Source: Myxococcales bacterium
Lineage (GTDB): Bacteria; UBA10199; 2-02-FULL-44-16; JAAZCA01
Direction: 5' to 3'
Length of the DNA: 64,000 nucleotides
Assembly: GCA_012513515.1 (NCBI GenBank)
Contig: JAAZCA010000019.1
Location: forward strand, 62,001 to 126,000
Part shown: positions 9,294 to 56,917 of the stretch, piece by piece
Layout: every line of letters begins with the position of its first letter
Numbering within the stretch: the stretch's first letter is position 1
Notes under the pieces: model-generated
What the model was told of the DNA's origin: nothing
Database searches by the model: none
The model's input: the letters and a program-made list of their open reading frames with translations, nothing else
Made by a program: the position numbers and the translations under genes

Positions 9294-12200
9294 ATGATGA
9301 GGGCAGAACAAAAATGCAAAGGTCTGGGAATTGATATCGGCGCGCTCGCGGTGAAGATCGTCTGGGTGGATGAGAGCAGCAACTTCCGAGCCCGATACAG
9401 GTTTCATAAGGGGCATCCCGAAAAAGTGTTGTCGGAGATGATATCCGAGTTCGGGATAGAATCCGAAAGCACCGCCATCACCGGCAGCGGCGGAAGAAAG
9501 ACCGCCGAAAAAATAGGCGCTCTCTATGTAGATCCCGCCGTCTGCCTTATAGCGGCGACGCAAGGTACGGAAGGGATCCGCCACATCATGGATATCGGCG
9601 GCGGCAGCCTCTCGATCGTCGATCTCGATTCCGAGGGAAGATTTTCGGGATTTCGAAGCAATTCGCTGTGTGCGGCCGGAACGGGATCCTTCCTCGACGA
9701 ACAGGCGGTCAGGATGAAGCTCTCTCTCGAAGAGATGGCCAAAGAGCGCGATATCGTAGAACCTCCGAGGATCGCCGCCCGCTGCGCAGTTTTTGCAAAG
9801 TCAGACCTGATACACCGCCAGCAGGAGGGATTCACCATCCCCGAGATGTGGTCCGGCCTCTGCCGCGGCATGGTATCGACCGCGCTCTCTACCCTGTTTC
9901 GCGGACGCAAGCCGGTCGGAAAAATTCTTCTGGCAGGCGGAGTTGCAAAAAATCACGAAGTGGTGAGATGGCTTAGGTCCGAACTTTCCGCTGAACTGAT
10001 CCTTCCAGAAAATCCTGAAACATTTTCCGCGCTCGGCGCTAGCGAGATGGCGAAAAAATCTTCGCACAAAGCCGATTTCTGCAAGCTCGGCGAGGAAGTT
10101 TTGGATTCCTGCGAACCTCGCAGAGAGGAACTTCGCCTCGACCTTTCAAAATATCCGAATTTTGAATGCAGGGATAGCTACATCGATGATGAAACGGAGG
10201 TAAGAATTCACGCGCCGCTGCAAGGTAAAGTAGCGGTCGGGCTGGATATCGGCTCTACCAGCACGAAGGCCGCGATTCTGGATGAAAATGGCTTCGTCCT
10301 CGCCGATCTCTACAGGAGGACAGCGGGCGATCCGATATCCGCGACGAAAAAGATCTTCGCATCGATCGAGCGCGCCTCTAAAGGTGCACCGTTTGAGATA
10401 GCCGGAGTCGCTACCACGGGTTCGGGGAGAAAGATGATCGGATCGATCATCGGCGCGGACAGAATAATAAATGAAATTACGGCACACGTGAGCGGTGCGG
10501 TGGCTGACGATCCCGATGTGGAAACCATATTCGAAATCGGCGGACAGGATGCAAAGTTCATCTCGCTAAAAGAAGGTGTGCCGCATGATTCCAACATGAA
10601 CTACGTCTGCGCCGCCGGAACGGGATCTTTCGTTGAGGAACAGGCCGGAAAGCTCGGATTCAAGCTCACCGAGATAGGCGATTCCGTGATGGGCACCAAG
10701 CCGCCATTTTCCACCGACCGCTGCACCGTATTCATGGAGCAGGATGTTCACGCGCTGATCAGGCAGGGATACGAAAGGCGCGAGGTGATGGGGAGCGTGC
10801 TCTACTCCGTCGTTCAGAATTACCTGAACCGCGTCGTTGGCCGCCATGCATTTTCAAAAAAGAAAATCTGTTTCATGGGAGCAACGGCCCGCAACAAGGG
10901 GCTCGTAGCCGCATTCGAAAAGCTGGTTGGCGCACCGATCTCCGTTTCGCCGTATTGCCACGTAATGGGGGCCTATGGCGTGGCGAGAATAGCGCTTAAT
11001 GAGGTTATTCTGAAAAATGAAAAAACAGATTTCGTCGGACTCAAAATAGTTCAGGGTCCGGTAGAGCTGAGGCGCGATGTGTGTGAGCTGTGCGCCAACA
11101 AGTGTTCGATCACCTTCGCGCTCGTGGGAGAAAATGCCACGGCCGAGAATGCGCCAAGTTGGGGATATCTGTGCGGCCGCGAGCCTGATGAAAAAGGCGT
11201 AAGGGTGAATCACAATTTTGACTTATTCAGGCAGCGAGACCGCATCTGGAGAAAGGCCGGAGAAGTTTCCTCTCTTCCAAAAAATGCCCCTGTCGTGGGA
11301 ATTCCGCGTGCGCTCCTCATGTACAGCTATCTTCCGATGTGGCGCAGATTTTTCGGCGAACTCGGAATCAGAGTTGTCCTGTCCAGACCGTCGAGTGACG
11401 AAACTCTCGCAATAGCCGAGGAGTTCATAAGCAGTGACTACTGCTACCCGGTGAAGCTGGCCCACGGACATGTGAGGGACCTCGCTGCCAACGGTGAGGT
11501 GCAGAAGATATTTTTCCCGTACATGGTGCAGGGCGAGCCGCATGACGACAAATTCGCAAGAAGCGTATTTTGTCCATACAACATATCCTTTCCATCTATA
11601 GCGAAGACAGCAGGGCTGGAAAATCCCGAGGGCAAAGAGATAATCTCCGCGGTCGTGAACCTGCAATACAAGACCGAAACGATAGTTCGCGACCTGATGG
11701 ATGGAGTAGGGAAGGGCTTCGGCCTCAAAAAAGATGACGTAAAGCGCGCGTGGCTCCTCGCAGTTGAGGAACAATCAAAATTTGTTGCCGACGTTGAAAA
11801 GATAGGCGCGACAGCTCTTGCCAAACTCGAAAAGGATGGCAGTCGGGGAGTGGTGCTTCTGGGTAGGTCCTACAACGTATGCGATCTCGGCGTTAATTTG
11901 AACCTTCCGCAGAAGATAGCGGACCTAGGCCTTCTCGCTTTCACGGTTGACATGCTTCCCCTGTCGCACATACGGATAGATCCCCTCTTCAAAAATATGT
12001 ATTGGAAATACGGGAGGAAGATGCTGCAGGCGGCCACTCTGGTGGCAAAGCACGAGGGTCTTCACGCCGTCTTTATGACAAACTTCAGCTGTGGTCCGGA
12101 CTCATTCTTGCAATCGTATGTGGAAAAGATCATGCGCGGAAAGCCGATGCTGATGCTGGAGATGGACGAACACAGCGCGGACGCCGGATATATTACGAGG

Positions 12201-13538
12201 CTCGAGGCCTTCAGGGATGTCATCTGCCGGGGAGAGAGCAGCGCGGCAACTCATCATTCCGGCGAATGCGGCAATCCAGAAAAATCATTGGATCCCCGCT
12301 TGCAACACGCAGGGACGACAACTGTTTCGGAAAACAACGGCGCATCCCCCGCAGGAAAGGATGTGAGAACCATCTGGCTTCCGCCGATGCACCCGTATGG
12401 AGCACCACTTTTGGCAGCGGCGATGCGCAGCAAGGGAATGCCGGCCAGGGAGCTTCCTTCGGAAACGCTCGAAACGTTTGAGATGGCGAAGCGCTACTGC
12501 CGCGGAACGGAATGCGTCCCGGCACCCTCCACGATAGGCGCATTTCTGGCGATGCTGAAAAAATCCGACGCGCCGGAGCGCGAATGTTTCTTCATGCCAA
12601 CGGCCAAAGGGCCGTGCAGGTTCGGACAGTATCACGCCCTTCATAGAATGATACTCGACGAGGCTGGCTACAAAAATACCCCGATCGAATCGTGGGACGA
12701 TGGGACCGGCGATTTCGGCCTTGACCTGGATACCAGCAAGAGAATCTACAGCACGATACTGTCGTCCGATCTTCTTTACAAAGCGCGCTGCAGGCTGCGT
12801 CCGTACGCGTATGACCGAATCGCATTCGATTCGCTCATGGAGAAACAGGTCGAGTTTATGTCCGAAAAAATAGAACGAGGCGAAAACATAGATGATGCCT
12901 TGGGACGGGTTGCCTCCGTTCTTTCAAAAGTTGATATCTCACGCGAGAGAAAGCCTCTGGTGGGAATAGTGGGCGAAATCTACGTCAGGGTAAATCCGTT
13001 CACCAATGGAAGGCTGGTCGAAACGGTTGAGGCGGCCGGTGGTGAGGCATGGCTTTCCCCTCTCACGGAATGGTTTCAGTACCTAGCCTACATGGATAAC
13101 CGAATGGCCAAGGATCGCGGGCGCACTTTTGGGGATAGAATAAAAAAATCGCTAAAAAATTCCTACATGATGATGAAGGAACGAAAGCTCACTAAGATAA
13201 TGGATCCCATAATCGGAGATAGAAGGGAGCCTTCGATAAAAAGCACCGTCTCGGCGGGAGCGCAGGTCTTTCCAGTTCAATTTGACGGTGAATCGATTCT
13301 CACTGTGGGTCGCGCAATAGAATTCGCACATCAGGGAGTGGATCTTATAATCAACTGTGCCCCCTTCGGATGCATGCCTGGAACGCTTACGTCCGGAATA
13401 TTCCAGGGGCTGGAGCAACGGATGGGGGTTCCCATAGTGAGTATGTTCTTCGACGGCGAAACCGATCTAAGCCACCTAGTGAGGACGTATCTGGAAAATA
13501 TCAAGCAGAGAAAGTCGACGTTGGAGAACAGGTCATGA
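9294..13538 (+). CDS. 2-hydroxyacyl-CoA dehydratase activase, two-ATPase fusion (BadF/BadG/BcrA/D + DUF2229 + HgdB-like)
   Basis: A 1414-residue cytoplasmic Fe-S protein of the activase family that uses ATP to drive electrons into 2-hydroxyacyl-CoA dehydratases or benzoyl-CoA-reductase-like partners. Two ASKHA ATPase domains are visible. The first (about 1-260) has a weakened phosphate motif, GLGIDIGALAVK. The second (about 313-575) has intact GLDIGSTSTK, IGGQDAK and CAAGTGSFVEEQA plus a cluster cysteine in RCTVFMEQD. A Cys-rich DUF2229 region (about 600-985) and a HgdB-like region (about 1020-1390) follow. Physiological substrates of this large subfamily are not known. Start: GGAGAA lies 6 bases before the ATG. 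The stop overlaps the TetR start (ATGA). A repeat-derived segment interrupts the linker near residue 985. Confidence 0.9.
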   Translation: MMRAEQKCKGLGIDIGALAVKIVWVDESSNFRARYRFHKGHPEKVLSEMISEFGIESESTAITGSGGRKTAEKIGALYVDPAVCLIAATQGTEGIRHIMDIGGGSLSIVDLDSEGRFSGFRSNSLCAAGTGSFLDEQAVRMKLSLEEMAKERDIVEPPRIAARCAVFAKSDLIHRQQEGFTIPEMWSGLCRGMVSTALSTLFRGRKPVGKILLAGGVAKNHEVVRWLRSELSAELILPENPETFSALGASEMAKKSSHKADFCKLGEEVLDSCEPRREELRLDLSKYPNFECRDSYIDDETEVRIHAPLQGKVAVGLDIGSTSTKAAILDENGFVLADLYRRTAGDPISATKKIFASIERASKGAPFEIAGVATTGSGRKMIGSIIGADRIINEITAHVSGAVADDPDVETIFEIGGQDAKFISLKEGVPHDSNMNYVCAAGTGSFVEEQAGKLGFKLTEIGDSVMGTKPPFSTDRCTVFMEQDVHALIRQGYERREVMGSVLYSVVQNYLNRVVGRHAFSKKKICFMGATARNKGLVAAFEKLVGAPISVSPYCHVMGAYGVARIALNEVILKNEKTDFVGLKIVQGPVELRRDVCELCANKCSITFALVGENATAENAPSWGYLCGREPDEKGVRVNHNFDLFRQRDRIWRKAGEVSSLPKNAPVVGIPRALLMYSYLPMWRRFFGELGIRVVLSRPSSDETLAIAEEFISSDYCYPVKLAHGHVRDLAANGEVQKIFFPYMVQGEPHDDKFARSVFCPYNISFPSIAKTAGLENPEGKEIISAVVNLQYKTETIVRDLMDGVGKGFGLKKDDVKRAWLLAVEEQSKFVADVEKIGATALAKLEKDGSRGVVLLGRSYNVCDLGVNLNLPQKIADLGLLAFTVDMLPLSHIRIDPLFKNMYWKYGRKMLQAATLVAKHEGLHAVFMTNFSCGPDSFLQSYVEKIMRGKPMLMLEMDEHSADAGYITRLEAFRDVICRGESSAATHHSGECGNPEKSLDPRLQHAGTTTVSENNGASPAGKDVRTIWLPPMHPYGAPLLAAAMRSKGMPARELPSETLETFEMAKRYCRGTECVPAPSTIGAFLAMLKKSDAPERECFFMPTAKGPCRFGQYHALHRMILDEAGYKNTPIESWDDGTGDFGLDLDTSKRIYSTILSSDLLYKARCRLRPYAYDRIAFDSLMEKQVEFMSEKIERGENIDDALGRVASVLSKVDISRERKPLVGIVGEIYVRVNPFTNGRLVETVEAAGGEAWLSPLTEWFQYLAYMDNRMAKDRGRTFGDRIKKSLKNSYMMMKERKLTKIMDPIIGDRREPSIKSTVSAGAQVFPVQFDGESILTVGRAIEFAHQGVDLIINCAPFGCMPGTLTSGIFQGLEQRMGVPIVSMFFDGETDLSHLVRTYLENIKQRKSTLENRS
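12247..12325 (+). repeat. Palindromic dispersed repeat inserted in frame in the activase gene
   Basis: This stretch has the arms of a common bacterial intergenic palindromic repeat, TCATTCCGGCGAATGCGG on the left and TGGATCCCCGCTTGC on the right. Here it is translated without frameshift as HHSGECGNPEKS-LDPRLQHAGTT (about residues 985-1010). It lies exactly in the linker between the DUF2229 part (ending EAFRDVI) and the HgdB-like part (starting IWLPPMHPYG), where extra residues should do little harm. Its unusual Gly/His/Pro composition differs from the flanks. Confidence 0.7.
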
Positions 13539-22886: not shown

Positions 22887-23052
22887 AAGGAACCTCTGAA
22901 AAGCTAGCTGTAAGCGCCTCTAAAAGCTATCTTATGAAAGCCGTCTGCCATCAGTCACGGTTGTTGCTGGATCCCCGATAGAACCATTCGGGGATGACAA
23001 GCGCATAGTTCTTAGAGGTGCCCTGAATTTGCTGATTTTTCGGAGGTTACTT
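22887..23052. mobile_element. MITE-like element, copy 1
   Basis: A 166-bp non-coding unit with imperfect terminal inverted repeats. The left end AACCTCTGAAAAGCTAGC pairs with the right end GCTGATTTTTCGGAGGTT, and an inner pair GCGCCTCTAAAAGCTAT / ATAGTTCTTAGAGGTGCC extends the arms to about 45 bp. Its centre (22951-23007) holds one unit of the dispersed palindromic repeat (CAGTCACGGTTGTTGC, then GGATCCCCGAT and ATTCGGGGATGAC). The right end overlaps the last codons of oppF and provides its stop. The second copy is at 36751. Confidence 0.65.
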
Positions 23053-36907: not shown

Positions 36908-37098
36908 CCAGTCACGGTTGTTACGGGATCCCCGATTACACCACTCGGGGATGACGAACACACTGTCATTCCCGTATGCTGTAAGCGGGAATCTCGTTCC
37001 GACCGCTCACTACTCACCAGTCACGGTCGTTACGGGATCCCCGATAAAAGCACTCGGGGATGACGACCTTCTCGTCATTCGGGGATGACAAGCGCATA
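36908..37098. repeat. Tandem cluster of dispersed palindromic repeat units
   Basis: Two full units (36908-36957 and 37018-37067) read CAGTCACGGT(T/C)GTTACGGG, then ATCCCCGAT and CACTCGGGGATGACGA. Two partial units, GTCATTCCCGTATGC (36964-36996) and TCGTCATTCGGGGATGACA (37072-37098), lie beside them. The same order recurs inverted at 56691-56790. Confidence 0.75.
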
Positions 37099-56493: not shown

Positions 56494-56917
56494 GCTATGC
56501 CCCCTCCTATTTGTATTGTCGGCTGGAGAGAGGGTAAGAGTTGCTAGAAAAATATATAATAATTACAATAAGTTGCCTGGATTTAGCGGCTGCTGAACTG
56601 TCGGCAATGGATTTCCGTTTGCCCCGCAGTAGCGGCGGCTTAGTGCCGCGGGAATGACATTCATGGTGTCATCCCTGAATGGTGAGAAGGTCGTCATCCC
56701 CGAATGACGAGAAGGTTGTCATCCCCGAGTGCTTTAATCGGGGATCCCGTAACAACCGTGACTGGTGAGCGGTCGGAACGGGGATTCCGCTTAGTACCTT
56801 CTTCTTCTTAATCTTAATGATTTGTAAGGTTTTGGACGAATGGACCAAAGCGCGCCTTGCCCGATTACCGCGGGTTTTATAGCATTTTCATCTGCGCTCT
56901 TATCGGTATCGTCCGGG
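56494..56917. other. Intergenic region with repeats
   Basis: 424 bases without a gene. It holds the promoter of the 904-residue gene at its left end and an inverted array of palindromic repeats at 56691-56790. Confidence 0.6.
56691..56790 (-). repeat. Inverted copy of the palindromic repeat array
   Basis: Read on the minus strand, this 100-base stretch matches 36990-37090 almost base for base: GTTCCGACCGCTCACCAGTC, then ACGGTTGTTACGGG, ATCCCCGATTAAAGCACTCG and CATTCGGGGATGACGA. Further partial units extend to 56655. Confidence 0.75.

Follow-up and report, generated by a model that had tools for sequence, protein, structure and literature searches.

Discussion of palindromic repeats that have become coding sequence usually centres on Rickettsia. 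A 64,000-nucleotide stretch of the genome of a Myxococcales bacterium (hereafter the window) raises the question of how such a repeat came to be translated within a long acyl-CoA dehydratase activase, and how the protein came to keep it. The gene (9294..13538, plus strand), recognized from its open reading frame and from Pfam and TIGR domain matches, encodes 1414 residues arranged as two BcrAD_BadFG domains, a DUF2229 domain (residues 668-888 in Pfam), an HGD-D-like tail (925-976, also Pfam) and an HgdB-like C-terminal part. The protein scores above the cut-off of TIGR00241 (acyl-CoA dehydratase activase), and in structure comparison its ATPase domains are covered by solved relatives; a domain search of curated libraries returned no match for the C-terminal part, from about residue 1028 onwards. 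Set against its nearest relative, the activase is highly conserved as far as R979 and hardly at all across residues 980-1027, with conservation resuming at W1028. These 48 codons (12231..12374, plus strand) form a hypervariable interdomain linker, and the repeat lies within it. An AlphaFold model built from two sequences had a mean pLDDT of 41, too poor for judging linker disorder.

A preliminary description had assigned a palindrome to positions 12247-12325, as about 26 residues at the exact junction of the DUF2229 and HgdB-like parts. Its arms are located where it gave them, and translation confirms that the frame is open throughout, with no stop across the repeat segment. The element itself and its interdomain position hold, with amendments: its limits shrink to 12253-12319, and the site is a point in the variable linker after the HGD-D tail rather than the exact junction. 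The revised limits come from a dimer model, which delimits an element of 67 nt, corresponding to about 23 residues (987-1009) and read as HHSGECGNPEKSLDPRLQHAGTT. It consists of two hairpin units in inverted orientation. The left unit (12253..12277, plus strand; 25 nt) has the form ATC-ATTCCGGC-GAAT-GCGGCAAT-CC, with an 8-bp stem of which 6 pairs are kept and a 4-nt loop; a spacer of 12 nt (12278..12289, plus strand), the commonest length among related dimers, separates it from the right unit (12290..12319, minus strand; 30 nt), which also keeps 6 of 8 pairs, counted as Watson-Crick, and whose loop carries 5 extra nucleotides.

Could a diverged linker simply have come to look like a REP? The genome has no second copy of the exact left arm, and plain BLAST with the coding segment gives weak results, both of which would suit such a reading; detection required covariance models. 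Two were built, both without the coding copy. R1 draws on 22 intergenic hairpin units of the window's genome, R2 on 17 REP dimers of G033 and G023, other genomes of the same class. R1 matches 12290-12319 on the minus strand with 35.7 bits (E 2.3e-6 genome-wide), and R2 matches 12253-12319 over the whole length of the model with 44.4 bits (E 4.5e-10 in 643 kb of the window's genome), where the coding dimer is the top site and the runner-up reaches 28.8 bits. Since these values come from models independent of the coding copy, and architecture and the 12-nt spacer agree with them, chance likeness is excluded for practical purposes; we regard it as barely credible.

The family to which the element is related is dispersed, as had been proposed: R1 detects 89 hairpin units in the genome at E<0.02, the coding copy included. 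Five further units lie in the window at E<1e-9, all intergenic members of the genome's 30-nt family, at 22969..22998 (minus), 36926..36955 (minus), 36965..36994 (plus; of the form TCATTCC...GGAATC), 37035..37064 (minus) and 56718..56747 (plus). Composites built of CCAGTCACGG motifs, GGGATCCCCG hairpins and TCTAGAA-type repeats also occur between genes of the window, at 22.9 kb, 36.8-37.1 kb, 39.6 kb, 51.1 kb and 56.7 kb. The suggested search for other coding copies yielded none: the activase copy is the only one of the 89 units inside a gene. Seven others fall in long open frames; five of these precede a likely start codon, 1-38 codons past the preceding stop, and the remaining two, in an open frame at C5:24545-24613, are taken to lie in a shadow frame. 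The intergenic units belong to a long-loop subtype of 30 nt; the coding element, by contrast, combines units of the 25-nt type into a dimer, the only one of its subtype that R2 finds in the 643 kb sampled. It is no longer an intact palindrome: two of the 8 pairs in each stem are mismatched, and the strand folds no better than its shuffles (z -0.43). The coding copy is thus a decayed palindrome, and the idea of a recent mutation finds no support.

On its sequence features we assign the coding element to the CGTC-tagged REPs, a superfamily that includes Neisseria dRS3 and Rickettsia RPE-4 and RPE-6 (PMC3733652). Such REPs have a CGTC or TGTC tag, an 8-9 bp stem opening with AT, a loop of 4-5 nt and a CCA tail, form mostly HH dimers, and have no known dedicated transposase (PMC3733652). 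The likeness extends to the CC(A) tail, to dispersal in many copies, to intragenic copies encoding 20-30 residues and to the lack of an adjacent transposase, and probably also to the 8-bp stem starting from AT, the 4-nt loop, the GTC tag in its TGTC variant and the dimer form. In the coding dimer the tag reads TGTC in the right unit (12290-12320, minus strand) and CATC in the left, and both units finish in CC-A; the units of G033 and G023 are nearly all T-GTC, and most show the 8-9 bp AT-stem and 4-5 nt loop without exception. The differences lie in the host lineage, the decay and the 5-nt loop insertion; the related units dispersed through the window's genome, being of the long-loop subtype, have loops of 8-9 nt against 4-5 nt. 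As in CGTC-tagged REPs, the family does not flank transposase genes: no unit occurs in the 3.3-kb locus of either Y1_Tnp gene of the genome. Mobilization by a RAYT was rejected on this ground, and a RAYT-mobilized GTAG REP also because there is no GTAG tag. One of the two loci is flanked by other repeats: the Y1-type transposase-like gene L090 (G000:C29:25451) stands among arrays of GCTCCGTCTGACG, which are sparser at the second such gene, L089 (G000:C19:40794). The arrangement resembles a REPtron and has no relation to the coding REP.

Rickettsia palindromic elements are 105-146 bp long and occur in frame within conserved proteins (PMC2229807). The activase likewise contains a tolerated palindrome fused in frame inside a conserved protein; its element differs in measuring 67 nt and in being the one coding copy among 89 in its host. 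An RPE-1 type, with 105-146 bp and 12-bp terminal inverted repeats, was rejected on size and lineage. Records of coding insertions are fuller than the preliminary description assumed: intragenic REPs outside that genus, with dimers encoding 20-30 residues, have been catalogued (PMC3733652).

Whether the element was inserted into a finished gene can be judged from orthologues. As the alignment proposed in the preliminary description predicted, the REP peptide is missing from the orthologues L017 (68% identical) and L018 (62% identical). Between a DEH.ADAG and a PPMHP.G-like motif the window's activase has 79 residues, against a median of 58 in 35 fused orthologues, a set that includes other phyla. 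With the family dispersed in the genome, this bears out the suggestion of an in-frame capture serving as linker. One might instead suppose that the repeat first lay between two genes and became coding once they fused, and split versions do exist, the C-terminal part being a separate ORF in G023, G033 and G056 and probably in G009. Fused activases with short linkers, however, are found in L017, a close relative, as well as in other phyla, and L018, the other close relative, is likewise fused; the insertion is therefore later than the fusion, and an intergenic origin is very unlikely. No sister strain among the relatives searched offered an exact empty site, and the linker sequence on either side has diverged too far for target-site duplications to be defined. 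Related dimers measure 62, 64 or 68 nt, none a multiple of three, so that flanking changes must have preserved the frame.

The same linker has taken up other repeats elsewhere. It reaches at least 70 residues in 8 of the 35 fused orthologues. In G045 (114 residues) it contains two copies, read in frame, of a 63-nt dispersed repeat (L021 junction), for which the G045 genome has at least 44 matches and which is not inside a gene in any of 8 other loci examined. In the G003 linker (76 residues), GAGGCT-like hexamers come first and then four CCAGTCA heptamers, (CCAGTCA)4; CCAGTCACCAGTCAC occurs 55 times in the G003 genome against once for a reversed control, and the hexamer part too has matches elsewhere in the sampled genome. 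In G306, which belongs to another phylum, the linker (70 residues) includes heptamer runs, AGAAGACAG and GGCTGAAGGCTTAAGG, found again in the sampled genome: the linker has 5 matches, and of 62 further windows of the gene 3 have any, weaker evidence than for G045 and G003. Runs of these heptamers also appear in apparent coding sequence of the G306 genome, in L165 (8680), L168 (11590) and L170 (10020). For the long linkers of G108, G174, G310 and G046, samples of 91-180 kb from the respective genomes gave no repeat, so a captured repeat does not account for every long linker. Different repeats have been captured at one activase junction in at least three lineages, the window's included, and probably in four. 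The REPs at a shared site in orthologous recB genes of Xanthomonas (PMC3733652) are comparable in that repeats inserted recurrently at about one site; those in the activase belong to unrelated classes and to different genera and families.

G033 and G023 carry REPs at other sites. In the G033 activase homologue a REP dimer, read in frame as SSLRKQGSSVYKLDPRFHGDD, lies between the two ASKHA domains (L289, G033:C150, 4478-4541; L026). The corresponding inter-ASKHA linker of G023, GTCATTCTGGGCATTAGCGAAGAATCC, resembles a REP, and 91 kb of the G023 genome contain two near matches to it; BLAST of this linker against a small genome sample found nothing, and the form GTCATTCTG...GAAGAATCC does recur in the G023 genome. 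R1 has at least 34 matches in G033 and at least 30 in G023, lower bounds because 150 candidates per genome were scored, and at least 19 of the 49 sites examined in context lie in ORFs of Pfam families. The genes concerned in G033 are uvrB, cysS, urocanase (hutU), der and those for a histidine kinase, an ADP-forming acyl-CoA synthetase-like protein, an amidohydrolase, an epimerase, a pseudouridine synthase, a tRNA methyltransferase, a TlyA-like FtsJ, TAtT, TonB and the activase; in G023 they are gpmI, gcvPB, tgt, queC and that for an M42 peptidase. In-frame dimers or single units in housekeeping genes are exemplified by L279, L290, L286, L294, L298, L299, L305 and L306. In some cases, such as the epimerase and TonB, the REP is within the ORF yet outside the Pfam match. 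The REP-encoded stretch is missing, wholly or for the most part, from the PDB homologues of UvrB, urocanase, GpmI, Tgt and Der, and insert-free counterparts exist for the M42 peptidase (in G000) and the TlyA-like methyltransferase (in G023 and G000). In two further G033 ORFs, L281 (1774-1931) and L293 (2061; without a Pfam match), a REP unit follows a similar DRIAGK motif; the two are perhaps paralogues duplicated after the insertion. Both the recurrence of unrelated repeats at one linker and the broad coding invasion by REPs in relatives had been missed in the preliminary description.

A single reading frame is shared by 10 of the 12 in-gene dimers and by the dimer of the window; the remaining pair, with spacers of 14 nt, have the LDPRLRGDD-like half in common. 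So uniform a choice of frame, together with the lengthening of one linker by repeats in independent lineages, might suggest that the captured repeat acquired a selected function, for instance in spacing or as an mRNA hairpin. Yet the captured sequences are unrelated to one another, the stems of the coding dimer have decayed to the point of folding no better than shuffles, and most orthologues carry no captured repeat, and we consider selection improbable.

The reading that we hold with considerable confidence is a neutral in-frame capture of a CGTC-type REP dimer into the linker of an already fused activase, where tolerance of length allowed it to persist. A REP would have been moved or copied by some agent into the interdomain linker, in the lineage of the window's genome and after its split from the nearest sampled relatives. 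Insertions that hit a folded domain or fell out of frame would be lost, while those in linkers and loops, in a stop-free hydrophilic frame, would survive and then decay under weak constraint. One frame of the dimer (H-S-R-E-S-G-N-P...L-D-P-R-L-R-G-D-D) is usually stop-free and hydrophilic and may add about 23 residues harmlessly. The REP would thus have been retained because the linker acts as a length-tolerant tether and because this frame can be read through.

In-frame REPs, including dimers of 20-30 residues, are already known, as are the shared site in recB and the RPEs; as far as the mostly open-access literature shows, what appears to be new is the lineage, the density of REPs in G033 and G023, and the arrival of unrelated repeats at one linker. 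At its broadest, the picture would be one in which the interdomain linkers of long activases repeatedly capture the junk repeats of each genome (REP dimers, 63-mers, heptamers) and turn them into linker, and in which, in one branch of the class, a translation-compatible REP dimer spreads in one frame across housekeeping genes, in a Rickettsia-like invasion outside Rickettsia; we put this combined view at slightly less than an even chance. A REP kind related to that of Rickettsia, found in the uvrB, urocanase, phosphoglycerate mutase, tRNA-guanine transglycosylase and other genes of uncultured bacteria, together with the several unrelated repeat classes at a single linker of one protein family, offers natural replicates of how often selfish DNA turns into protein sequence and of where proteins tolerate it.
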